Origin: Bdellovibrionales bacterium
GTDB lineage: Bacteria > Bdellovibrionota > UBA1018 > CAIMNF01
Reading direction: 5' to 3'
NCBI GenBank assembly: GCA_018266375.1
Contig: JAFEAO010000005.1
Location: forward strand, 254,619-318,618
Length of the DNA: 64,000 nt
The translations under genes and the position numbers were made by a program. Of this stretch, positions 47,975 to 64,000 are shown piece after piece (the stretch's first letter is position 1; each line of letters opens with the position of its first letter). The notes beneath the pieces were generated by a model. It was not told where the DNA came from. It made no database searches and worked only from the letters and a program-made list of their open reading frames with translations.

Positions 47975-47984
47975 CCCCGTCTCC

Positions 47985-48296
47985 TCAATCTCTCAATATC
48001 TGGATCTGGTCGGTATCGACCGATTTCAAGGTTCTAAACATCGCAATCACCAGACCCAAGCCCACCGCACTCTCGGCTGCGGCCACCGTCATCACAAACA
48101 AGACGGTCAGGTCGCCCAAAACCGATTGGTGCATTTTCGAGAAAGCCACGAAGCACAAGTTCACGGAGTTAAGCATGAGCTCGATACACATCAGCATGAT
48201 GAGGAGGTTCTTACGGATCAGAAGTCCGAAGAGACCGATTCCAAATACAATCAGGGCCACGACGACCATCATCATCGGTTGAATTTCGCCGTTCAT
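47985..48296 (-). CDS. nuoK: NADH-quinone oxidoreductase subunit K
   Basis: A protein of 103 residues with three membrane helices. The buried glutamates of the central half-channel are seen in MLMCIELMLNSVNL and AAAESAVGLGLV. Length is normal. Confidence 0.95.
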   Translation of the reverse strand: MNGEIQPMMMVVVALIVFGIGLFGLLIRKNLLIMLMCIELMLNSVNLCFVAFSKMHQSVLGDLTVLFVMTVAAAESAVGLGLVIAMFRTLKSVDTDQIQILRD

Positions 48297-48829
48297 GATA
48301 CTCCTCCCTTGCGTTGGCGCTTCGAGAGAGCAATCGTTGCGACGATTGCGCCCAAGAGCAAAAACGAGGTCAGTTCGAATTGAAAAAGATGATCCGTAAA
48401 GAGAAGCTCTGAAATCACGCGGAGGTTACCACCCAGCTCCTCTATTTTTTGATCGGTATAGATATTGGTGGGCGCTAGGCCGCTCACTCGGAGTGCGGCG
48501 TTGATCAACACGGTGACCATGCCCACGCACGCGAGACCCGCAATGCCCTTAAATAGTAAACTCGACTCTTTGATGTCGGTGATCGGACTGTCTTGGTTTA
48601 AAAGCATGATCACGAACACGAAGAGCACCATGATGGCACCCGTGTATACAAGAATCTGCAGCGCCGCGATCAGGTGCGCACCCATGAGCGCGTACAATCC
48701 GGAAAATGAAAAGAAAACCAGGACCAAAGCAAACGCGGAAGCCACCGGAGTCCGGCGAAAGATCACGAGCAAACTACCCACGATTGCAATGGTAGAAAAT
48801 GCAGCGAAGGCGATCATTGAACCGGTCAT
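48293..48829 (-). CDS. nuoJ: NADH-quinone oxidoreductase subunit J
   Basis: A protein of 178 residues with five membrane helices. The conserved AALQILVYTGAIMVLFVFVIML segment of helix 3 (quoted in part by position 59-80) identifies it. Four-base overlaps on both sides. Confidence 0.95.
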   Translation of the reverse strand: MTGSMIAFAAFSTIAIVGSLLVIFRRTPVASAFALVLVFFSFSGLYALMGAHLIAALQILVYTGAIMVLFVFVIMLLNQDSPITDIKESSLLFKGIAGLACVGMVTVLINAALRVSGLAPTNIYTDQKIEELGGNLRVISELLFTDHLFQFELTSFLLLGAIVATIALSKRQRKGGVS

Positions 48830-49269
48830 TTGTTACCTCGTTGTTCGAGGAGGAAGTCTTTTTCGTACACTTCCCGGTTTTGCTGGCTCATCTCGTAGAT
48901 ATTACTGAGCTTGATCGCGTCCTTCGGGCAAGCCTCCTCACACATACCGCAGAAGCAGCAACGGAGGATGTCGATATCGAATTTGACCGGGTACTTTTCT
49001 TTATCTTCGCGCTCTCCGGCGATGATATGGATACAGCTGGCCGGACAGACTGTCGGACACAGCATACATGCCGTGCAGTTCTCGACGTTGTTGACGGACT
49101 TAATGTAGTGCTGACCTCGGTAACGGCTTGAGTAGTCGCGACGCTGTTCCGGGAACTGAATCGTCACCTTCTTGTGAAACAGGAAGTTTTTGAACGTGAT
49201 CCACAAGCCCTGGATGATCTCGACGAAGTAGAGGCGGTTCCAAATAGCGGGTTTACGTTTGACTAACAT
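48826..49269 (-). CDS. nuoI: NADH-quinone oxidoreductase subunit I
   Basis: A 2[4Fe-4S] ferredoxin-like subunit of 147 residues with both cluster motifs, CTACMLCPTVCP and CCFCGMCEEACP. It holds clusters N6a and N6b that lead to N2 in NuoB. Confidence 0.96.
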   Translation of the reverse strand: MLVKRKPAIWNRLYFVEIIQGLWITFKNFLFHKKVTIQFPEQRRDYSSRYRGQHYIKSVNNVENCTACMLCPTVCPASCIHIIAGEREDKEKYPVKFDIDILRCCFCGMCEEACPKDAIKLSNIYEMSQQNREVYEKDFLLEQRGNK

Positions 49270-49270
49270 C

Positions 49271-50356
49271 TTAGAGGACCCCCATATAAATCAAAACTCC
49301 GGTGATGAGCACGTTGAGTAGAGCGAGAGGGAACATCACCTTCCAACCGAGGTTCATGAGTTGATCGAAGCGGAAACGCGGGATCGACCAACGTACCCAC
49401 ACAAAAATCCACATCCAGATCGCAATCTTGGTCACAAACGACAAGGCTTGGCAGAGGACGAGCGCGCCGCCGCTGGGCAATATTCCGAGCGCATCCAAGT
49501 GACCCACAACCCAATCCATACCCGGGAGAAGCTGCCACCCGCCAAAAAAGAGCGTGCAGATGAGCGCCGAAGCAACGGCCATATTGATAAACTCGGCCAT
49601 CATAAAAAGAGCAAAACGCATTGCTCCGTACTCCAAGTGATAGCCCGCGATCAACTCCGACTCGCCCTCGGGCAGGTCGAACGGAAGACGGTTGGTTTCC
49701 GCGAATACCGACACGACAAAAAGCACGAATCCGAGCGGTTGAAGGAATACGCCCCACTTCGGAATTTCAATCCCGGCAATAGTCCAAAGGACTTCACCCT
49801 GCTGAGCGGTGATCTCTCCGAGTTTCACGCTTTGGAAAATCATCGCAAGGCCAACAATCGAAAGACCGAGGCTCAGCTCGTAACTGATCATCTGAGCCGC
49901 ACTACGAAGAGATCCGAGGAGCGAGTACTTATTATTGGACGCCCAACCCGCCATAATGATGCCGTAGACACCCAGCGACGCGATCGAGAAGCAGTACAAA
50001 ATACCGACGTCGAGATTAGCGATCTGAAACTGAAGGTGTCCGTTTGCATCGGTGTAGGTCCCGGCGAACGGAATTACGGCGAACGTCATGAACGACGGAA
50101 TCACCGCTATCCACGGAGCAATATGCCAATAGTACTTATTAACGTGATCGGGAGCGCGGTCTTCCTTAAAGATAAACTTAAGAACATCGCACGCCGCTTG
50201 GAACAAACCGAACGGACCCATGCGATTCGGACCCAATCGATTTTGAATGAGAGCCGATCCTCGACGCTCAACAAAAAGCATGATCGGAACGACGGCAAGC
50301 AACCCCATGAGGACGATCGCGATCTTGCCGAACATGAAAGCGGTTTCGAAGCTCAC
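49271..50356 (-). CDS. nuoH: NADH-quinone oxidoreductase subunit H
   Basis: A protein of 361 residues with eight membrane helices. Hallmarks are ERRGSALIQNRLGPNR and AETNRLPFDLPEGESEL, which line the quinone chamber and the E-channel. It is an intact reference for the degenerate H-type paralogue upstream. Confidence 0.97.
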   Translation of the reverse strand: MSFETAFMFGKIAIVLMGLLAVVPIMLFVERRGSALIQNRLGPNRMGPFGLFQAACDVLKFIFKEDRAPDHVNKYYWHIAPWIAVIPSFMTFAVIPFAGTYTDANGHLQFQIANLDVGILYCFSIASLGVYGIIMAGWASNNKYSLLGSLRSAAQMISYELSLGLSIVGLAMIFQSVKLGEITAQQGEVLWTIAGIEIPKWGVFLQPLGFVLFVVSVFAETNRLPFDLPEGESELIAGYHLEYGAMRFALFMMAEFINMAVASALICTLFFGGWQLLPGMDWVVGHLDALGILPSGGALVLCQALSFVTKIAIWMWIFVWVRWSIPRFRFDQLMNLGWKVMFPLALLNVLITGVLIYMGVL

Positions 50357-51771
50357 GCGACACCCACTTTCGTTTTCTTATTGGCAAGTAACATCAGGAT
50401 TTCAGCCGTAGACTTCGAGCGGCCGCGAGGAAGAATCGCACGCTTCAGTTTTTGCTCTTTGCCCTGGTGATTGATGATCGTTCCGTCTTTCTCTGTATAA
50501 GCGAGACCCGGGAGAATGTGCTGGTATTTCGCGGTCTGGTGATCTTTATCCAGGAATACACCCACCCCGACTTGAATCGCATGTCCAAGTTCCGGCAGTA
50601 CCGCTCTGCCGCCCGTGAACACGACTGCGGCGCTAAAGTCGTGATCCACCCTGGGATTATGCGGAACAATTCCCAATTTCTCCGCGCCGCGAAGATTCGA
50701 CGTCTTGCTCGTCATTTTCAATATTTTATCCGCCGGCTGGTCTTGCGCCGAGGTTTCAATTCCCGGAGTGCCGAAGTGTTGAAGCACTGAACCCGGATAA
50801 TAAAGACCCGTGAACTCGCGAATCGCGCTCATCTCTTCAAGAGTGAGGTCGGTTCCGACTAAAAAAAGAACCTTCTTACCTTCGAGTGCCGTCTTCACCG
50901 CCAGGATCGAATCTTCCCAACTCGTCTTCTCGTTATTCCAACGAGGTTCGAGAACGCGGGTCTCGTCCTGGGTATAGTGATAGTTGAACCGACCTTCGTC
51001 ACACATCCAATATTTGTTCACTTCCAAGTTCTCGCGCGGGATCGTGCGATAGACGACGTTTCCTTCGTGTTGGAGTTCGATGTTGCAGCCCTTCGAACAG
51101 CCTTCGCAGATACTCGCGGTTTTCTTGAGCATCCAAGCGCGTTTGCGGAACCGAAAGTCGCGCAAAGTAAGTGAACCCGTCGGACAAATATCCGCATAAT
51201 TGCCTGCGTATTCGGTCTTGAGCGCTTCACCGTCGATCGTGGTGATATCGACGTTGTTACCGCGTTTGACCGCAACCATCTCGCGGATGCCGGCAATCTC
51301 GTCGCCGAAACGGATACAACGCGTGCAGTGAATACAACGGTTCATGTTCTTTTCGATCACCGGACCCATATCGACGTCGACATAGGTGCGGCGTTCTTCG
51401 GAGTGGCGCATGTACGCGCTTCCGTGGCCGTAAGAGTTATCTTGTAGATCGCATTCGCCGGACTTATCGCAGATCGGACAATCGAGCGGATGGTTCAAGA
51501 GGAGAAACTCCATCGTTCCGGCACGGCCCTTTTTAACATTTTCAGAATTGGTTTTGACCACCATGCCCTCAGCGGCGTTTGTTGAACACGCGGTTTGAAG
51601 TTTTGGCATCTTCTCCACTTCGACGTAACACATGCGGCATTGGGCGACGACCGTCAGTCCCGGATGATAACAAAACACGGGGATATCGACACCCGCGCGT
51701 TTCGCAACGGTAATGAGGTTTTCGCCCGGTTTAAACTCCACTTCTTTACCATCAATCGTACACTTAGGCAT
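50353..51771 (-). CDS. nuoG: NADH-quinone oxidoreductase subunit G, short form
   Basis: A protein of 472 residues. The N-terminal half has all cluster motifs: 2Fe-2S (CYHPGLTVVAQCRMC), His-Cys3 (HPLDCPICDKSGEC), 4Fe-4S (CIHCTRC ... CPTG) and the start of the molybdopterin-type domain (CEGCSKGC). The rest is much shorter than in E. coli (about 908 aa) or Paracoccus (about 670 aa), so the molybdopterin-like domain is largely lost. The N1a-N3-N4-N5 path should still work. Confidence 0.94.
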   Translation of the reverse strand: MPKCTIDGKEVEFKPGENLITVAKRAGVDIPVFCYHPGLTVVAQCRMCYVEVEKMPKLQTACSTNAAEGMVVKTNSENVKKGRAGTMEFLLLNHPLDCPICDKSGECDLQDNSYGHGSAYMRHSEERRTYVDVDMGPVIEKNMNRCIHCTRCIRFGDEIAGIREMVAVKRGNNVDITTIDGEALKTEYAGNYADICPTGSLTLRDFRFRKRAWMLKKTASICEGCSKGCNIELQHEGNVVYRTIPRENLEVNKYWMCDEGRFNYHYTQDETRVLEPRWNNEKTSWEDSILAVKTALEGKKVLFLVGTDLTLEEMSAIREFTGLYYPGSVLQHFGTPGIETSAQDQPADKILKMTSKTSNLRGAEKLGIVPHNPRVDHDFSAAVVFTGGRAVLPELGHAIQVGVGVFLDKDHQTAKYQHILPGLAYTEKDGTIINHQGKEQKLKRAILPRGRSKSTAEILMLLANKKTKVGVA

Positions 51772-53077
51772 GGCGCACCCGTTCTTTCACATCGCCCCTG
51801 ACGTAGGCTTCGAACTCAGGCCTGAATTTTTTGATAAAGCTGATCACCGGGCCCGCGGCCGCGTCGCCGAGAGCGCATAAAGTTTTACCGCCGATGTTGC
51901 CCGCGATGTCGGTGAGCATGTCGATGTCCGATGGCTTCGCTTTGCCGTCATGGGGGTGATGAACAATCCGGTGAAGAATCGACTCCATCCACTGACAACC
52001 TTCACGACATGGCGTGCACTGGCCGCACGACTCGTGCGCGTAGAATTTAGTCACACGCAGGAGGAGTTTGACCATGTCGGTGGTGTCGTCGCAAACCATG
52101 ATCGCCGCAGAACCCATCATAGTTCCTACCTTCTGAAGTGGCTCGACGTCGTACACAACGTCGATTTCGTCCGCGCTCAATACCGGCGCCGACGACCCGC
52201 CCGGAACGACGGCTTTGAGTTTGCGGCCCTTCCAAACCCCGCCGCCCAAATCTTCGATGATCTGACGGAGAGTCATGGAGCCGGCACCAATCTCATAAAC
52301 TCCTGGTTTATTGACGTGGCCCGAGAGAGAAATCAAACGGGTACCCCCCGATTTATCAATCTTGCCGAGCTTTGCAAAATTATCGCCGCCCATGCGCATG
52401 ACAAACGGAACGGTCGCGACGGATTCGACGTTGTTGACGGCAGTTGGACACGCGAATGCGCCTGAAACCGCCGGGAACGGCGGCTTCACGCGAGGCTCTC
52501 CGCGCTTGCCTTCAAGTGAGTTCAAGAGGCCAGTCTCTTCGCCGCAAATATACGCGCCAGCACCACGATGGATGGTGATATCGAGCGTGTTTTGTGTTCC
52601 GAGGATATTTTGCCCGAGGTAACCTTTAGCGTATGCTTCGTCGATCGCTTCCTGAAGTAACTTTGCTTCGCGTGCGTACTCTCCACGGATGTAGATATAA
52701 GAGTGCTTGCAGCCGATCGCGTGGGATCCGATGATAATGCCTTCGATCAGCGCGTGCGGAGTATAGCGAATGATCTGACGATCTTTGCAAGTACCCGGCT
52801 CGGATTCATCAGCGTTGATCACGAGATATTTTGGTTTATCCACCTTCGGGATGAAGCTCCATTTCATTCCCATCGGGAAGCCCGCGCCGCCGCGGCCCCG
52901 AAGATTCGCTTTTTTAACTTCGTCGATCACTTGATCGGGAGTCATCTCGGTCAAAACCTTCTTGGCCATTTTGTAACCGTCCATTTTGTCGAGGTAGTAC
53001 TCAAGCTTACGGTTCGAGTCTTTCCAAAAATGCGGTTCGAATAACTTCGTCACAGGAGTATTGGCTTCCACGCTCAT
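51764..53077 (-). CDS. nuoF: NADH-quinone oxidoreductase subunit F
   Basis: A protein of 437 residues. NADH/FMN site: GRGGAGFPMGMKW and GAGAYICGEETGLLNS. The N3 cluster ligands are in ESCGQCTPCREG plus a later Cys. It oxidises NADH and passes electrons to NuoG. It overlaps nuoE by four bases. Confidence 0.97.
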   Translation of the reverse strand: MSVEANTPVTKLFEPHFWKDSNRKLEYYLDKMDGYKMAKKVLTEMTPDQVIDEVKKANLRGRGGAGFPMGMKWSFIPKVDKPKYLVINADESEPGTCKDRQIIRYTPHALIEGIIIGSHAIGCKHSYIYIRGEYAREAKLLQEAIDEAYAKGYLGQNILGTQNTLDITIHRGAGAYICGEETGLLNSLEGKRGEPRVKPPFPAVSGAFACPTAVNNVESVATVPFVMRMGGDNFAKLGKIDKSGGTRLISLSGHVNKPGVYEIGAGSMTLRQIIEDLGGGVWKGRKLKAVVPGGSSAPVLSADEIDVVYDVEPLQKVGTMMGSAAIMVCDDTTDMVKLLLRVTKFYAHESCGQCTPCREGCQWMESILHRIVHHPHDGKAKPSDIDMLTDIAGNIGGKTLCALGDAAAGPVISFIKKFRPEFEAYVRGDVKERVRHA

Positions 53078-53568
53078 GCCTGGCCTCCTTTATTTTTTTC
53101 GATGAAATCACTTAAAGAGTTGATATCCAGGTTCTCGATGTAATCGTCATTCGCCATCATCGCCGGAGCCGTCGTGCAAGCGCCCAAGCACTCTTCTTCG
53201 GACAAGGTAAACCTGCCGTCCGGGGTGGTTTCTCCACACTTGATGGCGAGTTTTTTCTCGGCGTATTCCATGAGTTCGTCCGCTCCACGCAAACAACACG
53301 CGACGTTCGTACAAATCTTCAGGTGCATTTTGCCGACCGGCTTAAGGTTGTACATCGTATAGAAGCTCGCGACTTCGCGAATCTGCGCCGGGTGAACGCC
53401 GATGTAGTTTGCAACGTCCTCAAGCGTTTCCTTTGACAACCAGCCGTGCTCTTTTTGTGCCTCATGCAGGGCCGGGAGAATCAATGCCTTCTTGTTCGGA
53501 TAGCGCGGTTCCAATTTTTTCATCGCGGTATAAAACTTCTCGCTTAAAACTTTTCCTGTGGTCGCCAT
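53074..53568 (-). CDS. nuoE: NADH-quinone oxidoreductase subunit E
   Basis: About 164 residues from MATTGKVLSEKF, an ATG placed just after the nuoD stop. Thioredoxin-like 2Fe-2S domain with ligands in CTNVAC and CLGAC. It holds cluster N1a beside NuoF. Confidence 0.95.
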   Translation of the reverse strand: MATTGKVLSEKFYTAMKKLEPRYPNKKALILPALHEAQKEHGWLSKETLEDVANYIGVHPAQIREVASFYTMYNLKPVGKMHLKICTNVACCLRGADELMEYAEKKLAIKCGETTPDGRFTLSEEECLGACTTAPAMMANDDYIENLDINSLSDFIEKNKGGQA

Positions 53569-53569
53569 A

Positions 53570-54847
53570 TTAGCGGTCGAGCTCCCCTGCAATCACATTG
53601 ATGCTACCGAGGGCCGCGACGAGGTCGGCGATGTAACCGCCTTTGATCATCGGGTCCAAACCTTGGTAGTGCCAGAACGACGGCCCGCGAATACGCATGC
53701 GATGCGCGGCTGGGCCACCTTTACTGACGATGTAAAATCCGAGTTCGCCGTTTGCGGCCTCGAAGGCGGTGTACGCTTCGCCCGCAGGCACGTTGAATCC
53801 CGTCATGAAAAATTTGAAATGGTGAATGAGGCCTTCCATCGTGTTATACACGACGTCTTTGTCCGGGATGCGCACGCGCTTATCTTCAGACCAGATCGGG
53901 CCCGGTTTAATACGATCCGCGCATTGAGTGAGGATATTCAGAGATTGCTTCATCTCTTCCATGCGCACGTAGTAGCGATCGAACACGTCACCGTTTTGCG
54001 CGACCGGCACGTCAAAATCAATTTTATCGTAGAACATTGAAGGCTGATCGCGACGAAGGTCGATATCCACGCCGGCGGCACGCGCGTTCGGACCGGTGTA
54101 GCTGTATCTTAAACATTGCTCTTTGTTGAACACCGATACGTTTTTGGTGCGTTTCAACCAAATGCGGTTATCAGTGAGAAGTTTGTCCATCTCGTCGATG
54201 ACTTCACGAGTTTCTTTACACCACTCGCGCACTTCATTTTCCCAACCCTCGGGAGCATCGGCCATAAGGCCGCCGATGCGGGTGTAGGACGTAGTCAAAC
54301 GCGCACCACATACTTTTTCAATGAGCGTGTAAGCCTTCTCGCGCTGATGGAAGCCATACAGGAAGTATGAGAATGCACCCAAGTCGACCGCACTAATGCC
54401 CACGCAAATCAAATGGTCGATTACGCGAGAGAGTTCAGCGCACATCATTCGGATCCAAATCGCGCGCTCAGGCACCTCGACGCCCATCAGGCGCTCGACC
54501 GCCATCGCATACGTTACATTATTGATGAGCGACGAGCAGTAGTTCAAACGGTCGGTGTACACTATGAACTGGTGATACGTACGGTTCTCGCCTAGTTTTT
54601 CTTTCGCACGGTGAGTGTAGCCAAATTCCGAATAAGATTTTTCAATAATCTCGCCGTTCAGCTTCGCCATGCAACGAAAGGCTCCGTGCATCGCCGGATG
54701 GGTTGGCCCGATGTTCACGATCACGCGAGAGTCGTCGAAAATATCGTCCGAATCTTTTTTTAGTGTGATGTCGTATTGAGCCGGGAATCCCCAACGGGCG
54801 ATATCAAGTGGAACATCATGAAAATTGCTTTTATCGTTATCGCTCAT
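53570..54847 (-). CDS. nuoD: NADH-quinone oxidoreductase subunit D
   Basis: About 425 residues from MSDNDKSNFHD; a longer frame of 63 residues lies inside nuoC and was rejected. The quinone-site histidine is in NIGPTHPAMHG, and the quinone-site tyrosine is in TDRLNYCSSL. It is the 49-kDa subunit. It overlaps the nuoC stop by four bases. Confidence 0.96.
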   Translation of the reverse strand: MSDNDKSNFHDVPLDIARWGFPAQYDITLKKDSDDIFDDSRVIVNIGPTHPAMHGAFRCMAKLNGEIIEKSYSEFGYTHRAKEKLGENRTYHQFIVYTDRLNYCSSLINNVTYAMAVERLMGVEVPERAIWIRMMCAELSRVIDHLICVGISAVDLGAFSYFLYGFHQREKAYTLIEKVCGARLTTSYTRIGGLMADAPEGWENEVREWCKETREVIDEMDKLLTDNRIWLKRTKNVSVFNKEQCLRYSYTGPNARAAGVDIDLRRDQPSMFYDKIDFDVPVAQNGDVFDRYYVRMEEMKQSLNILTQCADRIKPGPIWSEDKRVRIPDKDVVYNTMEGLIHHFKFFMTGFNVPAGEAYTAFEAANGELGFYIVSKGGPAAHRMRIRGPSFWHYQGLDPMIKGGYIADLVAALGSINVIAGELDR

Positions 54848-55404
54848 GACAAAAGCTCCGGATCGATCGGTTCGGGCGATAAAAAAATCTGGTAGCCGCG
54901 AAGCGGATAATCTTTGCGCAAAGGATGGCCTTCCCAACGTTGGTCCATGAGAATGCGGCGAAGATCCGGATGGCCTTCGAAGTGAATCCCGAACATGTCG
55001 TAAATCTCGCGTTCGGCCCAGTTGGCGCCTTCCCACAGCGGGATTGCCGTCGGCATCTTCTCGCCGTCAGCGACGCGGGTTTTGATGCGCACGCGAGCTT
55101 TAGTTTCGAGATGCATGAGGTGGTACACGACAAAAAACCGCGGATCGCCTTCTTCGTCGACCGCGGTCATGTCGCTCAAAAACGAATAACCGTAACGATC
55201 TTTCGTCGAACGCAAGAAATCGATGATGATCGGTTTCTTTACGATGATGGTCGGAATATCAACGGCATCGGTACCTGGTTTCAAAATTTGCTCGATCGAC
55301 GAGGTAAAATCATTCGAGAGCGCCGTCAAGAGCTGTTCCCAAGCCGTTCCGTATTTATCGCTAAAATTACCCCAATTGGTCTTGATCGATGTACGCACGT
55401 CCAT
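54844..55404 (-). CDS. nuoC: NADH-quinone oxidoreductase subunit C
   Basis: A protein of 186 residues, the 30-kDa subunit. Signature is WAEREIYDMFGIHFEGHPDLRR (positions 125-146), followed by EGHPLRKDYPL. It is a separate gene, not fused to nuoD. Confidence 0.96.
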   Translation of the reverse strand: MDVRTSIKTNWGNFSDKYGTAWEQLLTALSNDFTSSIEQILKPGTDAVDIPTIIVKKPIIIDFLRSTKDRYGYSFLSDMTAVDEEGDPRFFVVYHLMHLETKARVRIKTRVADGEKMPTAIPLWEGANWAEREIYDMFGIHFEGHPDLRRILMDQRWEGHPLRKDYPLRGYQIFLSPEPIDPELLS

Positions 55405-55407
55405 TAT

Positions 55408-55977
55408 TTAAACCTTCCTCTGCTCAGAGCCACGAGGATGAGCATCCATCGACGACACCGCCGGGAGCGGAGTCGGAGGAGTTTTACCGTCGGGTGATTT
55501 CATGCGGCGGTGAGCATGAGTCTCTCCACGCGCGATCATGTCTTCCAAGCGCAGAAGACCGTTCAGCAATCCTTCCGGAGCCGGAGGACATCCCGGAACA
55601 TAAACGTCGACCGGCACGACCGTGTCGATGCCTTGAGTGACCGAGTAAACATTGAAAATCCCTCCCGATGATGCGCAAGCGCCCATCGAAATCACCCACT
55701 TCGGATCCGCCATCTGGTCGTAGATGTTGCGCAGGATCGGGGCCATCTTCAGGTTCACGATGCCAGCGACAACAAGCAAGTCTGACTGACGTGGAGAAAA
55801 GCGCACGACTTCGGCGCCGAAACGGGCCATATCGTATCCGGATGCGAGTGTCGCCATGAGCTCAATCCCACAGCAGCTCGTCCCAAATGGAAGCGGGTAC
55901 AGAGAGTTCTTCCGCGCCCAGTTCACAACGTTTTCAAGTTTGGTTGTAAAAAAATCCGCCGAACCGTCTTTTGACAT
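55408..55977 (-). CDS. nuoB: NADH-quinone oxidoreductase subunit B
   Basis: A protein of 189 residues. The N2 cluster ligands are the tandem Cys in GTSCCGIELM, Cys in MGACASSGG and Cys in VPGCPPAPE. It binds quinone with NuoD. A 15-base gap separates it from nuoA. Confidence 0.97.
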   Translation of the reverse strand: MSKDGSADFFTTKLENVVNWARKNSLYPLPFGTSCCGIELMATLASGYDMARFGAEVVRFSPRQSDLLVVAGIVNLKMAPILRNIYDQMADPKWVISMGACASSGGIFNVYSVTQGIDTVVPVDVYVPGCPPAPEGLLNGLLRLEDMIARGETHAHRRMKSPDGKTPPTPLPAVSSMDAHPRGSEQRKV

Positions 55978-55992
55978 CTGTGACCTCGTTAA

Positions 55993-56355
55993 TTATTCCC
56001 AGTCCAACGCGCCCTTGCGCAAAATATAGACATACCCGACTAACAATACAGCTATGAACACCGCCATCTCGATGATGATAAAATTTCCAGAGCTCAAAAG
56101 TTTTTTGTAAACGACCGCATAGGGATAAAAGAAAACTATTTCGACGTCGAACAACAAGAAAAGGATCGCCACGAGATAAAACCGGACCGACATCCGCCGG
56201 TTCTTGGCGTGGTCAACAGGAGGCACGCCGCATTCCACGGGCGAGTCCTTGGTTTTGTTGGGTAGGTTGGGTCCAATGAGGCTCGTGATCAAGAGCACGG
56301 CGCCCCCAATCGCTACCCCGGCCGCCATCATGATCAGCACCGGAATATACTCCAT
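55993..56355 (-). CDS. nuoA: NADH-quinone oxidoreductase subunit A
   Basis: A protein of 120 residues with three membrane helices. The loop motif SPVECGVPPVDHAKNR and the helix FLLFDVEIVFFYPYA are standard. First gene of the canonical operon; only 50 bases separate it from the complex-I-like block upstream, with AAGGAT before the ATG. Confidence 0.96.
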   Translation of the reverse strand: MEYIPVLIMMAAGVAIGGAVLLITSLIGPNLPNKTKDSPVECGVPPVDHAKNRRMSVRFYLVAILFLLFDVEIVFFYPYAVVYKKLLSSGNFIIIEMAVFIAVLLVGYVYILRKGALDWE

Positions 56356-56405: not shown

Positions 56406-57770
56406 TTACCATAAATTAGGAATGGGTTGAGTATTTAATCTCGAAACGAAGCCCTTCCCGAATGCGGTCATGAGAATTACGCAAAGCATTACCAGCGTGA
56501 GCAAACTCCAATCTCCGCGATTTCCGGGAGACTCGGTTCGACCTACGTCGTCATGATGTCTGCGCAAGATCTGAGTGATCATCTGAACTGCTGCGATAGA
56601 GATAAAAAACCACGAAATAAGAAATGCGACCGAGAACGGCGCAAGTTCTGCGGTGTGAAGTTCCTTCAGAATCAAAAAATATTGATATCCGAGCATGAGG
56701 GGCGGGAAACCGAGGCCAGCAAGCACCGCAACAACGCTAAACCAACGATTGTTTTCAGCACCGCCCAAAAATGCACGGCCCAAAAGAGTCGTCGTCATAA
56801 GCAGTCCGACCAGCAATGTAAATAAAATTGGAAGCGCCGTGTTCGACGGAAGTAAAAGTGGAAACAAACTTAGGCTAAAGAGCGCGGCAAGCATATTAGA
56901 AAGCCATCTGTTGGGCTCTTTAGTACGCGCAGCCATCAACGAGTATCTTACGGCGGAAGTCGTGAGCACGACACCCAGAACCGACTGCGAAATCATTTTC
57001 GGCAAGAATTCGAACTGCGCATAAAACGGAACCGCTACTCGAATCAAAAATAGGATTGCTCCAAAGAAGCAAAACAGATTGAAATAGGGCAGCGACATCG
57101 GTGCCAAACCCACAATATGTATCCCGTGAAGGAGCCAGAAGGAGAAATAAAGAATCAAAAACCCCACGAAGCACTGAATGAGTTCCGGCTTACCCTTCAA
57201 CCCGGCCATAAATTCATTGATGTAACCCGTGCCCATGAGATATTCACCCACCAAGAACAGCACCAGGAACACCGATGTCACCATCAAAATGGAAAACGTG
57301 GTCTTTCCGAAAAACTCGGTCCAGTTTTTGCTCGCGTTCGACTCGACCATTACGAGGCTCATGCCTGAGATAATGAGGCCGACAAGTCCGATATACGTGC
57401 TCACCCAATGATTGGATTGCGAGAGCAGACACAAGAAGAACGCGCCGGACAAAAGACCCATCTGACCGCGGAGCTTCGAGACCACGCTCAAGCCCGAGTG
57501 AAGCGCCAATTGCCATGAGCCCACCGCCACCATAAAGAGCGAAATCATGCGGCAATAGCGTGAAACCGCGTCGCTGAATAAAATCATGAGTGGCGAATCA
57601 AAGGTAAAGAGATCGCTTCGAGCTCCGTAATAGAACGCTCCAAAAAAAGAAGTCAATCCCGTCACGAAGATAAGGAGGTGCGAACTTGTAGTTCGAAACC
57701 CCGCTCCACCGAGAACCAGCGCGAATTGAATTAAAATTAAAATTTCTGGAATCCAATTCAAGATCGTCAT
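56406..57770 (-). CDS. NuoN-like membrane protein of the complex-I-like block, channel residues lost
   Basis: A protein of 454 residues with about 13-14 membrane helices and the size and layout of NuoN. In the place of the helix-5 glutamate (canonical FIALEVMSL) it has YIGLVGLII, with Val130. In the place of the helix-7 lysine it has LILYFSFWLLHGI. By my alignment both residues essential for proton movement are therefore missing. It is the last gene of the ten-gene block and overlaps the gene before it by four bases. Membership in the antiporter-like family is inferred from position, length and hydropathy plus weak motif similarity. Confidence 0.7.
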   Translation of the reverse strand: MTILNWIPEILILIQFALVLGGAGFRTTSSHLLIFVTGLTSFFGAFYYGARSDLFTFDSPLMILFSDAVSRYCRMISLFMVAVGSWQLALHSGLSVVSKLRGQMGLLSGAFFLCLLSQSNHWVSTYIGLVGLIISGMSLVMVESNASKNWTEFFGKTTFSILMVTSVFLVLFLVGEYLMGTGYINEFMAGLKGKPELIQCFVGFLILYFSFWLLHGIHIVGLAPMSLPYFNLFCFFGAILFLIRVAVPFYAQFEFLPKMISQSVLGVVLTTSAVRYSLMAARTKEPNRWLSNMLAALFSLSLFPLLLPSNTALPILFTLLVGLLMTTTLLGRAFLGGAENNRWFSVVAVLAGLGFPPLMLGYQYFLILKELHTAELAPFSVAFLISWFFISIAAVQMITQILRRHHDDVGRTESPGNRGDWSLLTLVMLCVILMTAFGKGFVSRLNTQPIPNLW

Positions 57771-58735
57771 TGCGAGAGCCCCACAAAAAGCAACAACTGC
57801 GCCAGGAGCGCGATCAAGTATCTCACCGATGGCCAGGTGGTTTTATGCTCGCCAAATTCGATGCCTTGAATGAGCGCATATGCGTGGAGACATTGGACCA
57901 CGAACACAAAAATAATCCAGAGCGGATTCATCGCGACCACGCCCGGGAGCACCTCTCTAAACAAGAGGAAGCTGAGGGCGCCTGGAACGCCGAGAAGCGC
58001 GACCCGCGCAACGGCATCAAAGAGAGGCGACTGACGACTGCCGAGATCAAAAAGACGGGCACCGAGCAATACAAACCCGAGAAGCGAGCCCAACAACAAG
58101 ACAGGAACCCGCTCGGCGTCCATCACGAGAGCAAAAAGCCCAAACCCAAGCCACGATTGCGTCAGGTGGATCAAGATCCAGCGCACGCGCTTCGATATAC
58201 CGGCAAAAATCGCGGAGAACGCGTAGGTCGCGAGACCCAGGCAGCAAAGAGTGAGGTCCCAAATCTGGGAGTACTCGACCTTAACCTGATCTTTAATCCG
58301 CCCCATCACGACAAGCGTGATGAGTGCCGGGAGCACCACGGTATCGATATACGCGCGAGAAGTGAGTGCGACGTAGTGGCGGGCAAAACCCACGTTCCAC
58401 GGCATCACCGGAAGCGAAATCAAAAGACCGAAGAAAACCCAAAGCGTCGAATACTGCGATCCCTCGGATGAAACTCCATACACCGCGAGAAAGCAGCCAA
58501 AGAGACGGAGGAAATAAGCCTTCTGAGTGAGAATGAGGGCGGTCTTCTTTGAGTTCACCGCTGTTTGAAGGAATGCGACGAGATGAAGCGATATGAGCGC
58601 GAGTAAGTTTACGACGACCGACGAACTCATCAGCACGATCCCCGCGATGAGCGTCACCGGCAAACTTGCTATCACGCCGGAGAGACACCACGAGGCAAAT
58701 ACCATGATCATGACCGGGTTTAAACTCCAGATCAT
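57767..58735 (-). CDS. NuoM-like membrane protein of the complex-I-like block, shortened
   Basis: About 322 residues from MIWSLNPVM (ATG overlapping the previous stop), with nine to ten membrane helices, against 485 for the canonical NuoM here. The helix-7 region LLISLPVMPWNVGFARHYV aligns with canonical AIKVPLVPFHGWVRDAY, with Ser107 in place of the essential Lys. The match supports descent from NuoM and loss of pumping. Function unknown. Confidence 0.65.
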   Translation of the reverse strand: MIWSLNPVMIMVFASWCLSGVIASLPVTLIAGIVLMSSSVVVNLLALISLHLVAFLQTAVNSKKTALILTQKAYFLRLFGCFLAVYGVSSEGSQYSTLWVFFGLLISLPVMPWNVGFARHYVALTSRAYIDTVVLPALITLVVMGRIKDQVKVEYSQIWDLTLCCLGLATYAFSAIFAGISKRVRWILIHLTQSWLGFGLFALVMDAERVPVLLLGSLLGFVLLGARLFDLGSRQSPLFDAVARVALLGVPGALSFLLFREVLPGVVAMNPLWIIFVFVVQCLHAYALIQGIEFGEHKTTWPSVRYLIALLAQLLLFVGLSQ

Positions 58736-59574
58736 CCGATCCTCCCGCGAATCACCACGATAAGAATCACCCAAGCCGCAAGAATCGAAAGAGCACTCCA
58801 AAAGAAAAATTTAAACTCGCCGTCCACCACCGCTGTCGCGGATTTCGCGGCCTGAATCCAGCCTTGACTCTCTCCGAAACTGCGATTGAACCCTTTGTAC
58901 ATCCGCGCGCCACGGCTATAGATGCCGCGAACCATTTTATCGAAGCCGATCTTTTTACCGAATACGAGACCCGAGACCACCGCCGCGACCAAGAGTGAGC
59001 CGGCGAGAACGGTAAGCGCCTGCGGGTTATCGACAATCTTGAGAATGTATTCTTTGAACGGATAGAAAACAGCCAAGACAATCGGCAGTTCAATCCAAGC
59101 CATAATACTGTCTACATTCTTGATTTTGGCTAGTCTCAAAACTTCTTCGAGCACAAGATAAAACGCCGCTGCCGCAAGAATAATCTCGAAATCCCCATGA
59201 CTCGGAAAAAACTGATGCGTCAGAGCAAGTGCCGGAACCACACCCAATCCACCTTGGCGGAGGTGCACCGAAACCATAAACAAACCGAAAACCAAGAAAA
59301 TCGTCTGATAGAAGTTACCGAGTACCGATGCGCCGACGAGCGCCGCCAGTCCAACTGCGTTCGTGAGCAACAGCCACTTCGAACGCTGCGTGTGTATCCG
59401 ATCAATTAAGATCAACCCGACGAGTAAGAGCACCGTAAACCAACCATGGGTCAGCGAGCCAAGGACCACGATCAAATAAGGAATAATCCTCTTTTCACGA
59501 ATCACACTCAGTGCGCTCACCAGCAAGAACAGAAGTCCGATCTGATTCAAATCGAAGGTCTCAAGACCGATCAT
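58732..59574 (-). CDS. Membrane protein in the NuoL position of the complex-I-like block
   Basis: A protein of 280 residues with about seven membrane helices, less than half of a normal NuoL (619). The end has an amphipathic charged segment (YSRGARMYKGFNRSFGE) followed by a final membrane span, like the C-terminal tail of NuoL. I cannot find the channel Lys or Glu motifs. Its relation to NuoL is inferred from position and this tail. Confidence 0.55.
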   Translation of the reverse strand: MIGLETFDLNQIGLLFLLVSALSVIREKRIIPYLIVVLGSLTHGWFTVLLLVGLILIDRIHTQRSKWLLLTNAVGLAALVGASVLGNFYQTIFLVFGLFMVSVHLRQGGLGVVPALALTHQFFPSHGDFEIILAAAAFYLVLEEVLRLAKIKNVDSIMAWIELPIVLAVFYPFKEYILKIVDNPQALTVLAGSLLVAAVVSGLVFGKKIGFDKMVRGIYSRGARMYKGFNRSFGESQGWIQAAKSATAVVDGEFKFFFWSALSILAAWVILIVVIRGRIG

Positions 59575-59794
59575 CGCTTTGAACCTCGCTTCTAAAAGAC
59601 CAGATGCAAACCAATGAGATCACGCCAAACAGAAGCGCCGAACCAACATAGACTTCCGTACGTCGTGCGCACACAAGTAACACCAGCGACACCACCGTCA
59701 CCAAACGGAACAGCCCAAGCGACATCCGCACAACTCCGGTCGACACAAACAACTCGTAAAGCGCATATACAATGAGCACTCCAAGCGCGATCAT
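59561..59794 (-). CDS. Small membrane protein in the NuoK position
   Basis: A protein of 77 residues starting MIALGVLIVYALYEL, with an ATGA overlap to the previous gene and three hydrophobic segments. NuoK has three helices and about 100 residues. The only membrane-embedded acid is the glutamate near residue 14. A longer frame starting upstream lies inside the neighbour and was rejected. Positional analogue only. Confidence 0.6.
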   Translation of the reverse strand: MIALGVLIVYALYELFVSTGVVRMSLGLFRLVTVVSLVLLVCARRTEVYVGSALLFGVISLVCIWSFRSEVQSDDRS

Positions 59795-60159
59795 CGCCTC
59801 TTCCTCTCGTTGGTCAGGTAGATCAATGCAAGACAAGACAAGAACCCAAGCCCAATCCAAATCGGCACTAGGTCTTCTTGCCAATACTTCGATACCTTTA
59901 CTTCGATCGGTGCCGGGACCTCGACATTGAAAAGCGGGAACACCCCGCCACCAAAAACCAGAGCCAGGACGATCGCCATCACCACTCGACCACGTTCGAA
60001 TTTTTGTTCGGACCAACCGAGCAAGTGGACCGTGCGCCAATACTGAGCCGCGAAGCTGATCGAGACCCCTAAGAAAACCACCCCTAAGAACGGGTCGCGC
60101 ATCCAAGCGGCAATCGATACAGCGAGCATCAGGAGCGCATCGACATAAAATCGAATCAT
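59791..60159 (-). CDS. Membrane protein in the NuoJ position
   Basis: A protein of 122 residues with three to four membrane helices (MIRFYVDALLMLAVSIAAW at the start). It overlaps the NuoI-like gene before it. NuoJ in the canonical operon has 178 residues. I see no NuoJ signature, so the assignment rests on gene order. Confidence 0.6.
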   Translation of the reverse strand: MIRFYVDALLMLAVSIAAWMRDPFLGVVFLGVSISFAAQYWRTVHLLGWSEQKFERGRVVMAIVLALVFGGGVFPLFNVEVPAPIEVKVSKYWQEDLVPIWIGLGFLSCLALIYLTNERKRR

Positions 60160-60548
60160 AAGTCGCCCCTTCCGAAGTCCGTCTTCAGGCTCTTGAGATC
60201 AAACACGGCCGGTTGAATCTCTTTGGTTTGGCTGAGCGACTCGGGTCCACAAACCTCGACGCACATACCGCAGAAGATACAGTTCGAGTAATCGATCTCG
60301 AACTTAGAAACCCAGTGACGGTTGTTCTTTTGGTTGATGACCGAAGAGACTTCGATACATTTGGTCGGGCACACTTTGCGGCAATCGCCGCAGCCGGTGC
60401 ACTTTTCGATCTCATTAAAAAGGAGGCCCCGTGCGCGCGCCGGAAAATCATCTTTGCTTCTAGACGACACCGGATCCGGGTAGAACTCGGTATCGATTTT
60501 ACGAATCTCGTCTTCATTGGTAAAGTGTTTCCAGATGGATTTAAACAT
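60156..60548 (-). CDS. NuoI-like 2[4Fe-4S] protein of the complex-I-like block
   Basis: A protein of 130 residues. Eight cluster cysteines are complete: 50, 53, 56 and 60 (CTGCGDCRKVCP), and 90, 93, 96 and 100 (CIFCGMCVEVCG). The second motif has Gly where Pro is usual. This keeps the N6a/N6b wire. It overlaps the NuoH-like gene before it by eight bases. Confidence 0.88.
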   Translation of the reverse strand: MFKSIWKHFTNEDEIRKIDTEFYPDPVSSRSKDDFPARARGLLFNEIEKCTGCGDCRKVCPTKCIEVSSVINQKNNRHWVSKFEIDYSNCIFCGMCVEVCGPESLSQTKEIQPAVFDLKSLKTDFGRGDL

Positions 60549-61308
60549 GGGTCACCGCCGAGATCAGGAATAAAAAAAACGTGATTGGAATCAGATACTG
60601 AATGCTGATTCGAAATAAATCCGCTTGCGAGTACTTTGGAAAATATTGGCCCATCAGGCGAGACACCAAGTACACCGCAACCGTTTTTAAGTAAAAATCT
60701 ACAACAAACCAAGAGCCTCCCATGAAAATCTTGGTTGCGAGCAACGACCAAACAAAAAACCGCGAGCTCTTCAGCCAGAAAATACGCGGATACATCGGCG
60801 CGAACGGATGCTCGCCAAACAAAATCATGCCGGCGATTTGGAATGGAAACACAAACAAAAGATTTGTCCAGTTCCATGACCATTCGGAAATATTCAACGA
60901 ACCCTGCCCCACCCCGCAAGCAAGCACGCAAATGAAAGAGATGAACGCTCCAATAAGAAAGCGCATCTGGCTTCGGTCCGAGCTCACCCGCTCAAACACT
61001 TCGAGCTGGTCGTGAGTCGAGATGACAATTAAAAACCAGTTAAAGAGCAGGTAAAGGTAGAACGCGCAGTCGACGTTCAAAAACAAAAGCGCCGCGCATG
61101 AAAGCTGACACAAATATAAAAACACGGCGCGCCAACTCGAAATCGATTTGAGGTCAGCGATCATGTCGATCCATTGCTGACTCAGGTAATCGCCGAACAC
61201 AATCCCACGTCCCACGCGGGCCTGATGGATCACGTTCACACGCTCGCTTGCGACGAATGCAAAAAAAGAAATCGGGAAGAGACCGAACGCGGCAAGGAAA
61301 ACATCCAT
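60541..61308 (-). CDS. NuoH-like membrane protein of the complex-I-like block, degenerate
   Basis: A protein of 255 residues with seven to eight membrane helices. The first loop ASERVNVIHQARVGRG aligns with NuoH ERRGSALIQNRLGPN. The later quinone-chamber loop ETNRLPFDLPE is reduced to FGEHPFAPMYP. It is about 100 residues shorter than the canonical NuoH in the same array. The anchor role for the B/D/I module is inferred. Confidence 0.75.
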   Translation of the reverse strand: MDVFLAAFGLFPISFFAFVASERVNVIHQARVGRGIVFGDYLSQQWIDMIADLKSISSWRAVFLYLCQLSCAALLFLNVDCAFYLYLLFNWFLIVISTHDQLEVFERVSSDRSQMRFLIGAFISFICVLACGVGQGSLNISEWSWNWTNLLFVFPFQIAGMILFGEHPFAPMYPRIFWLKSSRFFVWSLLATKIFMGGSWFVVDFYLKTVAVYLVSRLMGQYFPKYSQADLFRISIQYLIPITFFLFLISAVTHV

Positions 61309-62321
61309 CAGCGATCCACCTCCGTCACCGAAAGGTTGGCCGAAGCGAGGATGATCGGAATATCGTCAAACGCCTCGCCCTCGAGGAGCAAGGGGATCGC
61401 ATTTTTAATTTGATCGGACGGAGTCGAAACCGACGTCGTCTTTATATTGAGATTCGATCCGACATCAAACGACACGTCCCATGATCCGCGAAGTGTTTCG
61501 AATTTGGCTTCAACTTTCTTCTTCGAAGCACTATCCGGAATTTTTACGTAATAATCGCCGCCTTCGATCTTGCGCGAGAGCTCGAGAATCGACTCCGCGA
61601 GTTCGAACGACTCGCCCATCGCATAACGCAAGCGCGACCCAACACTGCTGTTCCAACCGAGCTTCGAGGTCTCAACGCGCGCTTCGCTGATGAACCCGTA
61701 CTTGCCATCGTCGAGCACGAGTCCGAGTTGATCCAAACGATTTTGAAACGGATGCGTCCAGCAGAACATTGCTTTAATCCGCTCAAAGTCCTTGATGTAT
61801 TGCTTCGACCAGACTTCCACGCGCTCCAAAAAACCGTCCGTGATGTCGTAGCGGGTACCGCCCGGAATAATGTAAAAGTAGCCGTAACGCGAGCCCGACA
61901 AGCGCTCCACTAAATCGAGAAGCTCTTCGCGGTGTTTGCGCAACAAATGCGATAACATGTGGATTCCAAATTGAGACGCCATCGCCGACAAGTACCTGAG
62001 AGCGCTTACAGCATCGACCATCTCGGCCGCAATATCGCGTATCCACGCTGCACGCGCGGTAATTTGCGTACCCGTCGCTTGTTCGATCAATTCCGAATAA
62101 ATCCGATCCGCGATGAACGCGCTCTCCGGATCGATGCGCGAAAAACACCTCTGCGCTTCGATAAAGTTTTTACCTTCGGTTTTCTCAATGATTCTGCGGC
62201 TCGCGTAACCGAATTCAGGCACAGCGGTCACGATGCGATCGCCTTCAAGGCTGACGTTCAACTTCATCATACCGGGAAGCCACGGGTGGATCGGGCCCAG
62301 ATCAATTTCTTTTTGAATCAT
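61308..62321 (-). CDS. NuoD-like large subunit of the complex-I-like block, no Ni-Fe ligands
   Basis: About 337 residues from MIQKEIDLGPIHPWLPG; the ATG overlaps the previous stop. His12 matches the quinone-site histidine of NuoD. The shared segment TARAAWIRDIAAEM matches canonical PERAIWIRMMCAEL. Only two cysteines exist (Cys59 and one near residue 195), and no CxxC pair, so it cannot hold the Ni-Fe centre of group 4 hydrogenases. The quinone-site Tyr of NuoD aligns with Pro65. There is no nuoC partner gene. Confidence 0.85.
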   Translation of the reverse strand: MIQKEIDLGPIHPWLPGMMKLNVSLEGDRIVTAVPEFGYASRRIIEKTEGKNFIEAQRCFSRIDPESAFIADRIYSELIEQATGTQITARAAWIRDIAAEMVDAVSALRYLSAMASQFGIHMLSHLLRKHREELLDLVERLSGSRYGYFYIIPGGTRYDITDGFLERVEVWSKQYIKDFERIKAMFCWTHPFQNRLDQLGLVLDDGKYGFISEARVETSKLGWNSSVGSRLRYAMGESFELAESILELSRKIEGGDYYVKIPDSASKKKVEAKFETLRGSWDVSFDVGSNLNIKTTSVSTPSDQIKNAIPLLLEGEAFDDIPIILASANLSVTEVDR

Positions 62322-62692
62322 TTCTGAACCTCGCGCAGCGAGATCACGCCATTCATGATCGCTTCCGGGCGCGGCGGACATCCGGTGACGTAAACGTTGA
62401 CCGGAACCTTACCTTCCATATCCGTGGGGAACAATCCCCCGCCGCATGCGCAGGTGCCGATCGCGAGCACGTACTTCGGCCGGGCCATGCGTTCGTAAAA
62501 ACTCATCACTTCCGTCCCGAGTTTGGCATTGATCGAGCCCTGGAGAATGAGCAAGTTCGCGTTCTCCGGCGTATCGCTCGGCATGCAACCCAGGCGCTCC
62601 AGATCGTAACGACTCGAATCGGTTTGAATCCAATCATCCCCGCAGCAAGACATGCCGACACGGATGTACCGGAGGAGGGGCTTAAGCGTCAT
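62318..62692 (-). CDS. NuoB-like Fe-S subunit of the complex-I-like block
   Basis: A protein of 124 residues against 189 for the canonical NuoB. N2-type ligands are present: Cys16-Cys17 (MSCCGDDW), Cys81 (GTCACGGG) and Cys105 (VTGCPPRPE). The PPRPEAIMNG segment after the last Cys is conserved in the whole NuoB/hydrogenase small-subunit superfamily. It should hold one 4Fe-4S cluster beside the D-like subunit. Confidence 0.9.
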   Translation of the reverse strand: MTLKPLLRYIRVGMSCCGDDWIQTDSSRYDLERLGCMPSDTPENANLLILQGSINAKLGTEVMSFYERMARPKYVLAIGTCACGGGLFPTDMEGKVPVNVYVTGCPPRPEAIMNGVISLREVQK

Positions 62693-62906
62693 CGGATGAG
62701 CCCTTCCGTAAATAATGCTGGGATGCTAAAAAGAAAGACAAGAAGAGCACCATCACGACCAAAATCGCGATGAGATACGGAATGCTTTTTCGCTCCTTCG
62801 AGACGAAGAGCGGAAGAGCAAAAACCAAAGGAATCCAAAAGCAGAGCAGCGCCTGAGACAGCTGTGTCGTCTTGATTTCAAAAGGTAAAATCTTTTTGGA
62901 TTTCAT
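62682..62906 (-). CDS. Small two-helix membrane protein in the NuoA position
   Basis: A protein of 74 residues with two membrane helices (about 18-36 and 43-64) and a basic start. It precedes the B-like gene, as nuoA precedes nuoB, and overlaps it by 11 bases. The conserved ECG loop of NuoA is absent, and there are two rather than three helices, so homology is unproven. AAGG lies almost adjacent to the ATG. First gene of the 25-gene leftward array. Confidence 0.6.
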   Translation of the reverse strand: MKSKKILPFEIKTTQLSQALLCFWIPLVFALPLFVSKERKSIPYLIAILVVMVLFLSFFLASQHYLRKGSSDDA

Positions 62907-62942: not shown

Positions 62943-64000
62943 ATGGTCGGGCCGGAACGCGAGACAAAATTTACAAATCCTCTCGTACATGCCTTTCACG
63001 CACTCACGCGCGCCGTGGAGCATCAAAAGCCGATCGTGTGTCTCACTTCCTCCAAAGAATTCATCGACGAGTGTCTTCCAATCGCCGAATCGCTGGCATC
63101 GGCCATGCTGCCTGCTTGGGGTCAGATCGTTCAGGTCGCACAGTGGTCTGCTTGGGACCATTCGCCCTTTTCGCCCGTGGCATCCTCGCTCACTCAAAAA
63201 CTCGATCGCCTCAAAATTTTAAAATTACTCAGCGACGGTTCGAAACCTCTCGTCCTTTTTTGCATGGTCGACGCCTGGGTACAGCCCACTCTCCCTGAAG
63301 ACCTCTATCGCAAACAAACTCGAGTATTTAAAGCGGGCGACGACATCGGCACACTTGAAGACTTCCGCACACTGCTACGCAACAACGGCTATGTAAAAAC
63401 CGAGACGGTCGAAGAAGCCGGCCAGTACGCCATTCGAGGCGAGCTCTGCGACCTTTTTATCGCATCTGAGACACAGCCGATTCGAATCGAACTCTTCGAT
63501 ACGCTCATCGAACGCATTCGCCCGTTCCATCCGGGCACCCAGCGCACGTTTAGCGAAGAATCCAAGCTCCATTCGTTCACGTTGGCGCCGGCCGAGGAGG
63601 CGCTCATCCCTTGGGATAACCTGAACCCGTTCCTCGAAAAGCTCAAGGAGTACTGCGACGCCCATCACATCTCGCGCAAGGTTCGTGATCCGATCTTTGA
63701 AAACATCCGCACCGGATTTTTGCCCGAGCAGTTTCGTACTTGGATTCCATTTTTGTACCAAAAAGAAGGTTTTTTACGCGACTACTTGCCTTCAACCGCT
63801 GAGGTGATCAGTTTCGAGCCGGCGCAAATCCGTAGTCGTTTAAGCAACTTTCTCACCGAGCAAAAAAAAGAATTTGACCGCTACGAACAACGCCACTGGA
63901 TCTCGCCCGACTTCGATTTGCTTTACAAGAGCGCAGACCCGCTCATGGAAGGCGCGCTCAATTCTTCGGCGTTCCTCATTACCTCCACTCCCACCTACAA
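62943..64000 (+). CDS. mfd: Transcription-repair coupling factor, N-terminal part (cut by window edge)
   Basis: An open frame of 352 codons runs off the right edge without a stop. The start ATG has AAAGGA about 7 bases before it. The protein matches the Mfd N-terminal UvrB-like region: WDHSPFSPVASSL, then LEDFRTLLRNNGYVKTE, VEEAGQYAIRGELCDLF, and RIELFDTLIERIRPF followed by GTQRTF. Mfd removes stalled RNA polymerase and recruits UvrA. The helicase domains lie outside the window. It is divergent from the respiratory array. Confidence 0.92.
   Translation, partial: MVGPERETKFTNPLVHAFHALTRAVEHQKPIVCLTSSKEFIDECLPIAESLASAMLPAWGQIVQVAQWSAWDHSPFSPVASSLTQKLDRLKILKLLSDGSKPLVLFCMVDAWVQPTLPEDLYRKQTRVFKAGDDIGTLEDFRTLLRNNGYVKTETVEEAGQYAIRGELCDLFIASETQPIRIELFDTLIERIRPFHPGTQRTFSEESKLHSFTLAPAEEALIPWDNLNPFLEKLKEYCDAHHISRKVRDPIFENIRTGFLPEQFRTWIPFLYQKEGFLRDYLPSTAEVISFEPAQIRSRLSNFLTEQKKEFDRYEQRHWISPDFDLLYKSADPLMEGALNSSAFLITSTPTY

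Follow-up and report, generated by a model that had tools for sequence, protein, structure and literature searches.

The stretch of DNA analysed here (the window) comprises 64,000 nt of contig JAFEAO010000005.1 of a Bdellovibrionales bacterium (assembly GCA_018266375.1), and all coordinates are positions within it. On its minus strand, from 62906 down to 56406, lies a block of ten open reading frames (ORFs) in the order A'-B'-D'-H'-I'-J'-K'-L'-M'-N', directly upstream of a canonical nuoA-N operon; a prime denotes a gene of the block, and nuoA and its like denote genes of the canonical operon. An earlier note, made from the sequence, had described ten genes in nuo order at this place, and all ten ORFs were confirmed, with 50 bp between the end of N' and the start of nuoA (56355). 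It had also stated that nearly all neighbours overlap by at least 4 bp; every neighbouring pair does overlap, by 1-14 bp (A'/B' 11, B'/D' 4, D'/H' 1, H'/I' 8, I'/J' 4, J'/K' 4, K'/L' 14, L'/M' 4, and M'/N' 4 bp), D'/H' sharing only a single base. As it had reported, no nuoC, nuoE, nuoF, or nuoG was found within the ten-gene block among the window ORFs and their Pfam matches, so that neither an NADH module nor a C subunit is encoded there. Lengths below are in amino acids (aa), and transmembrane is abbreviated TM.

62943..63998, plus strand: mfd, the divergent neighbour and landmark of the conserved block site.
62682..62906, minus strand: A', 74 aa, 2-3 TM helices, in the NuoA place.
62318..62692, minus strand: B', 124 aa, NuoB homolog with all four Cys of cluster N2 (PF01058, 1e-19; NCBIfam NuoB, 5e-34).
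61308..62321, minus strand: D', 337 aa, NuoD homolog (PF00346, 2e-14).
60541..61308, minus strand: H', 255 aa, shortened NuoH homolog (weak PF00146 match, 0.005).
60156..60548, minus strand: I', 130 aa, NuoI homolog with two complete 4Fe-4S motifs, N6a/N6b (NuoI-type ferredoxin Pfam, 7e-11; NCBIfam NuoI, 3e-19).
59791..60159, minus strand: J', 122 aa, about 4 TM helices, in the NuoJ place, assigned mainly by position.
59561..59794, minus strand: K', 77 aa, 3-4 TM helices, in the NuoK place, assigned by position.
58732..59574, minus strand: L', 280 aa, in the NuoL place, assigned by position and graded shrinkage.
57767..58735, minus strand: M', 322 aa, shortened NuoM-like antiporter subunit (hhalign, AlphaFold/Foldseek).
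56406..57770, minus strand: N', 454 aa, NuoN-like antiporter subunit without pump residues (hhalign, AlphaFold/Foldseek).
43226..56355, minus strand: canonical 14-gene nuoA-N operon, 50 bp downstream of N' (window ORFs; nuoD PF00346, 4e-109).

The start of D' is most likely 62321 and not 62381 because its homologs are 335-337 aa long, and K' is best placed at 59794-59561, within a longer ORF. A scan for promoters and terminators gave nothing above the chance level.

Homologous blocks were found at the same site in most genomes of the order (uncultured Bdellovibrionota), an occurrence far beyond chance. A search with D' gave matches in 57 of 58 relatives, mostly as two D genes about 7-10 kb apart, and 20 D'-matching loci were retrieved and their ORFs called for comparison of the blocks. 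In other families of the order the block consists of eleven full-length genes (A'B'C'D'H'I'J'K'L'M'N'; L' about 640, M' about 505, and N' about 490 aa) and stands directly upstream of nuoA, between mfd and nuoA. In the window's family C' is gone and the subunits are shortened, leaving ten genes; lengths in the window's genus are 74 aa for A', 255-269 for H', 130-135 for I', 116-122 for J', about 280 for L', 322-330 for M', and 454 for N', those of A' and N' being constant in all six members compared. The mean block total falls from about 3,300 aa in full-length blocks to 2,175 aa, a loss of about one third, and intermediates of L' exist as ORFs of 466 aa in the same genus (L059), 414 aa in another genus of the family (L039), and 529 and 544 aa at L045 and L033. 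The design without C', which the earlier note had taken as the primary architecture, is instead the miniaturised end of an eleven-gene block which, across most of the order, retains C' and full-length L, M, and N. An origin as a free-standing reduced complex was rejected, since throughout the order this site is taken by the full-length eleven-gene block.

Among named genomes 38 block loci were found, all in metagenome-assembled genomes (MAGs), with class outgroups in addition. The labels of these loci were Bdellovibrionales, Oligoflexia, Bacteriovoracaceae UBA1018, and similar, a few records bearing loose or odd names, and a decaying copy confined to one strain, considered beforehand as a possible outcome, was not what the gene-order search found. 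The block is always adjacent to and co-directional with nuoA-N, the gap between N' and nuoA being mostly 8-70 bp (full range 8-207 bp). A signature of I' (YPDPVSS) was specific to the order in a pattern search of DNA, and the few matches elsewhere in the phylum fit chance. In two members of the window's genus (G005 and G008) the block is absent, and mfd lies about 100 bp from nuoA; both retain nuoA-D and NuoF.

Related arrangements were seen at other loci. Two class outgroups (L050 and L051, families f7 and f8) carry a 12-gene block with one further antiporter-type ORF lying between L' and N', the antiporter ORF pairs being 446+481 and 475+493 aa, which recall '2M' complex I. Two Actinomycetota MAGs (L090 and L092) have K/L/M/N-like membrane genes upstream of nuoA, apparently a neighbouring second set.

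The descent of the block was examined with a tree of 46 D proteins. The 19 D' sequences all grouped together (100/99), apart from the 15 nuoD of the same class, which formed a group of their own (100/100), so that the phylogeny which had been proposed sets D' apart as a clade of its own. Branching within D' roughly follows the host families (f7/f8, f3, f2/f4, f5, f1), and D' branches are much longer than those of nuoD, which leaves the details of branching among them unsure. The block is old and inherited vertically within one order. A recent tandem duplication of the nuo operon is not supported, given that D' forms an old clade. Other second complex-I-type loci occur in the phylum: a further complex-I-like block of the eleven-gene type, with A to M seen, stands elsewhere in some genomes of the order (L103, G025:C31; L104, G027:C7), and B-C-D-I clusters with no recognised H beside D were found in other families (L105-L108). 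The D proteins of L103-L108 fall outside the D' clade, and an origin of the block from these loci is not supported.

The ratio of nonsynonymous to synonymous substitution rates (dN/dS) was 0.018-0.052 across all ten block genes in a close congener pair (L036/L037), against 0.006-0.055 for nuoA-D, values that are approximate because the synonymous divergence (dS) of the pair is high. Purifying selection is strong on each of the ten genes. Together with the order-wide site and the constant subunit lengths, this bears out the view that the block is a maintained unit, and debris was rejected on the basis of dN/dS and those lengths.

When the window proteins were compared with Pfam, clear matches were obtained for B', D', and I' only, the match of H' was weak, and A', J', K', L', M', and N' each gave no convincing match when taken alone. 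D' also matched 49 kDa/Nqo4 chains of the PDB (E values down to 3e-20). For a full-length member in a relative (L069), NCBIfam and Pfam gave NuoB (1e-58), PF00329 for C' (3e-18), PF00346 for D' (7e-70), PF00146 for H' (4e-53), PF00499 for J' (7e-13), PF00420 for K' (3e-8), NDH_I_M for M' (6e-97), and NDH_I_N for N' (5e-66); A' matched PF00507 weakly (0.006), and L' gave no match as a complex I subunit. Profiles of the window's genus were then set against full-length counterparts with hhalign, which gave 98% for H', 87-93% for M' against M' families (with an antiporter-like match to L also), 92% over 426 columns for N' once L059 was added to the profile, and 33% for J', the best in its row yet weak. 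No match was obtained in this comparison for A', K', or L' of the window, so that A' is identified by its position alone, with its constant 74 aa in six genus members as further support.

The AlphaFold model of M' had a predicted local distance difference test score (pLDDT) of 84 and a predicted template modelling score (pTM) of 0.84, and its top Foldseek matches were complex I M/N and Mrp D subunits (E values from 5e-5, TM score to the query about 0.7), spanning a shortened antiporter fold. For N' (pLDDT 83, pTM 0.86) the matches were NuoN/MrpD (E values from 1.5e-8, TM score 0.7-0.8, about 0.75). These models suggest that M' and N' keep the antiporter fold, with the qualification that the input alignments included full-length relatives and may bias the models toward it. 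Unrelated folds, which the earlier note had named as a possible result, were not what was predicted for these two proteins.

For a census of residues, the canonical subunits of the window served as the reference in alignments of about 40 loci. The ligands of the iron-sulfur (Fe-S) clusters, namely the four N2 Cys of B' and the eight N6a/N6b Cys of I', were retained at 39 of 39 loci (one cell being misaligned). The second His of the NuoD HPxxHG motif (Nqo4 His38) was retained in none of 41 D' and is usually Pro; the quinone Tyr (Nqo4 Tyr87) was retained in three of the 41, in side families f3/f7/f8 only, and is elsewhere mostly Pro. Both positions are Pro in the D' of the window, and the same replacements appeared when full-length D' was aligned to Nqo4 of 2fug. 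In the membrane arm the NuoK Glu pair was retained in 0 of 36 (mostly Gln within the order), NuoM E144 in 0 of 39, NuoM K234 in 0 of 39 (mostly Arg), NuoN E133 in one of 37, and NuoN K217 in 0 of 37 (both NuoN positions mostly Gln). One locus, L052 (f3), is alone in retaining NuoM E407 and K265 and the NuoH E-channel, and L' has essentially none of its pump residues left. Two NuoN Lys (K247/K395 positions) survive in most of the order (most f2 genomes) and not in the window's genus. Loss of pump residues often took the form of Glu/Lys to Gln. The shortening of the membrane subunits and the loss of their pump residues agree with the degenerate state first surmised for them. Beyond the reach of that first reading, and as judged from the alignments, even full-length blocks have lost the quinone-site residues and most pump residues yet keep every Fe-S ligand.

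Potential electron donors were sought in the host genomes. The block encodes no separate NADH module and may share NuoEFG; in 28 of 30 genomes there is just one NuoF, encoded in the canonical operon. Neither Rnf nor Nqr was found in the genomes searched, a clear pyruvate:ferredoxin oxidoreductase (PFOR) was found in one of 12 congeners only, and a heme-copper oxidase was present in all congeners searched. Ferredoxin from PFOR, or Rnf, was considered as an obvious donor and set aside, both being largely absent in the genus. The window's genome also encodes a second, diverged NuoF-type domain in a 509-aa frame (G000:C6:133174-133599), which its congeners do not have. Within the canonical operon of the window, nuoG (50353-51771) encodes 472 aa, below the usual NuoG size, and may miss part of the C-terminal domain. 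A 930-aa protein with a tetratricopeptide-repeat look is encoded on the same strand at 40424-43216, about 10 bp downstream of nuoN.

The block is a second complex-I-type gene set, vertically inherited in one order and placed between mfd and nuoA-N. The reading favoured here, to which about an even chance is given, is that it encodes an electron-carrying twin of complex I that would be uncoupled and non-pumping and would probably work with the neighbouring complex I. Its proteins would assemble into a small complex-I-shaped membrane complex in which I' and B' carry N6a, N6b, and N2. Because the ligands of these clusters are kept, electrons could run to the D'/B' pocket; the usual quinone chemistry would be excluded there by the loss of His and Tyr, and complex-I-style pumping by the membrane arm would be precluded by the neutralisation of its charged axis, the result being an uncoupled, non-pumping redox module. 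The most likely electron source would be the adjacent complex I system, through NuoEFG used in common or through contact between the two complexes, and not ferredoxin, because the nuo operon is shared, no NADH module belongs to the block itself, and the hosts are aerobic, without Rnf and mostly without PFOR. It is considered fairly probable that a pump-free, quinone-independent twin that opens the nuo operon throughout the order serves as a redox shunt to a new acceptor or as a pseudo-enzyme in an asymmetric supercomplex with complex I. Several points weigh against the favoured reading: two congeners live without the block, so that complex I itself does not need it; Fe-S clusters can persist for folding alone; unusually placed residues could bring back a measure of pumping or quinone binding; and A', K', and L' of the window are taken as the NuoA, NuoK, and NuoL counterparts by position.

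A possible but doubtful alternative is that the block serves the adjacent complex I structurally or as a regulator, be it in a heterodimer, in a supercomplex, or as an aid to assembly, and that its Fe-S clusters persist solely to let B', D', and I' fold. The invariable co-directional placement beside nuoA-N at 8-207 bp, the retention of the fold with loss of charge and quinone chemistry, often by Glu/Lys to Gln, and the lack of a private NADH module would all suit such a non-redox pseudo-complex, but G005 and G008 keep their complex I genes in the absence of the block, a chain of three intact 4Fe-4S clusters would be a costly scaffold, and the loss of C' and half of L' would be odd for a docking twin. 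It is unlikely that the block is an ancestral second complex I that lost its function in the class ancestor and is eroding from full to reduced to absent. Graded shrinkage, the faster evolution of D' relative to nuoD, and the clean loss in two congeners point that way, the last also counting against the favoured reading where it shows dispensability; this relic reading is already largely contradicted by dN/dS of 0.02-0.05 on all ten genes, constant lengths in the genus, intact overlapping ORFs, and twelve Cys invariant across the order, and decay is not expected to span the order's lifetime.

Two further readings keep a catalytic role. Reduction of a small non-quinone substrate, such as a sulfur compound, by N2 in B' with electrons from ferredoxin would parallel the sulfane-sulfur reductase MBS, where His38/Tyr87 of Nqo4 are likewise absent and the substrate is reduced at the cluster (PMC7684303), and the block does retain its Fe-S chain; it is nevertheless quite improbable, as MBS retains an antiporter Glu/Lys/His axis (PMC7684303) that the block does not, and the hosts have no Rnf, rarely a clear PFOR, and heme-copper oxidases. 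Least probable, and very much so, is a block that still reduces quinone and pumps ions by way of replaced residues. The two Lys kept in full-length N' of most f2 genomes, the H' R...GPNR loop retained there, and the Tyr and E-channel of L052 would speak for it; the quinone His is lost in 41 of 41 and the NuoK Glu in 36 of 36, the L' axis is gone essentially everywhere, and the remaining N' Lys are also lost in the window's genus.

Complex I is viewed as tightly coupled, and the block keeps its Fe-S wire and plan, minus the quinone chemistry and the charged axis. The membrane arm has then shrunk under strong purifying selection with intermediates still living, offering a natural dissection of the parts for electron transfer, folding, and pumping. 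It would also be something seldom seen in bacteria, an entire multi-subunit enzyme turned pseudo-enzyme or put to a new use and fixed next to the paralog that is still active, with selection maintaining what is apparently an engine-less copy of a central respiratory machine. No description of such a block in Bdellovibrionota or elsewhere was found in the open-access literature, most subscription papers lying outside the search.

The block resembles complex I (Nuo) in subunit set, gene order, homology of B, D, H, I, J, K, M, and N, and the ligands of N2, N6a, and N6b, and differs in being without E, F, and G, the quinone His/Tyr, the E-channel, and the NuoK and antiporter charges; in the window's family C' is also missing and the membrane subunits are shrunken. 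With the group 4 [NiFe] hydrogenases (Mbh, Ech, Hyc/Hyf) it shares a core of small Fe-S and large subunits on a membrane arm, an arrangement also found in the hydrogenase-related Ehr complexes, but in sequence and subunit set it is nearer Nuo. A hydrogenase was rejected because D' is without the two CxxC pairs of NiFe ligands and has only two isolated Cys and a C-terminus ending in EVDR. The 11-subunit enzyme (Nuo11) of Desulfitobacterium is a proposed, rotenone-sensitive menaquinol producer (PMC11238625). The full-length block has exactly its A, B, C, D, and H-N and likewise no NADH module, the set being complete in L061, L069, and L076 and incomplete in the window block, which has no C'; unlike Nuo11, the block has lost quinone-site and pump residues and is tied to the nuoA-N operon. 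In MBS of Pyrococcus there are two proton pumps with a charged axis and, tentatively, an Mrp-type Na+ module, and in archaeal MBS the loss of His38/Tyr87 accompanies a different acceptor reduced at the cluster (PMC7684303). The block shares the complex-I-like Fe-S chain and the absence of the quinone His/Tyr with MBS and differs in having no Mrp module and no charged axis; no Mrp genes were recognised in the ten-gene block among the window ORFs and their Pfam matches. As had been supposed, none of the described reduced relatives fits: by descent the block belongs to the complex I superfamily, and in features that were tested it departs from complex I, Nuo11, group 4 hydrogenases, Mbh, and MBS/Mbs.

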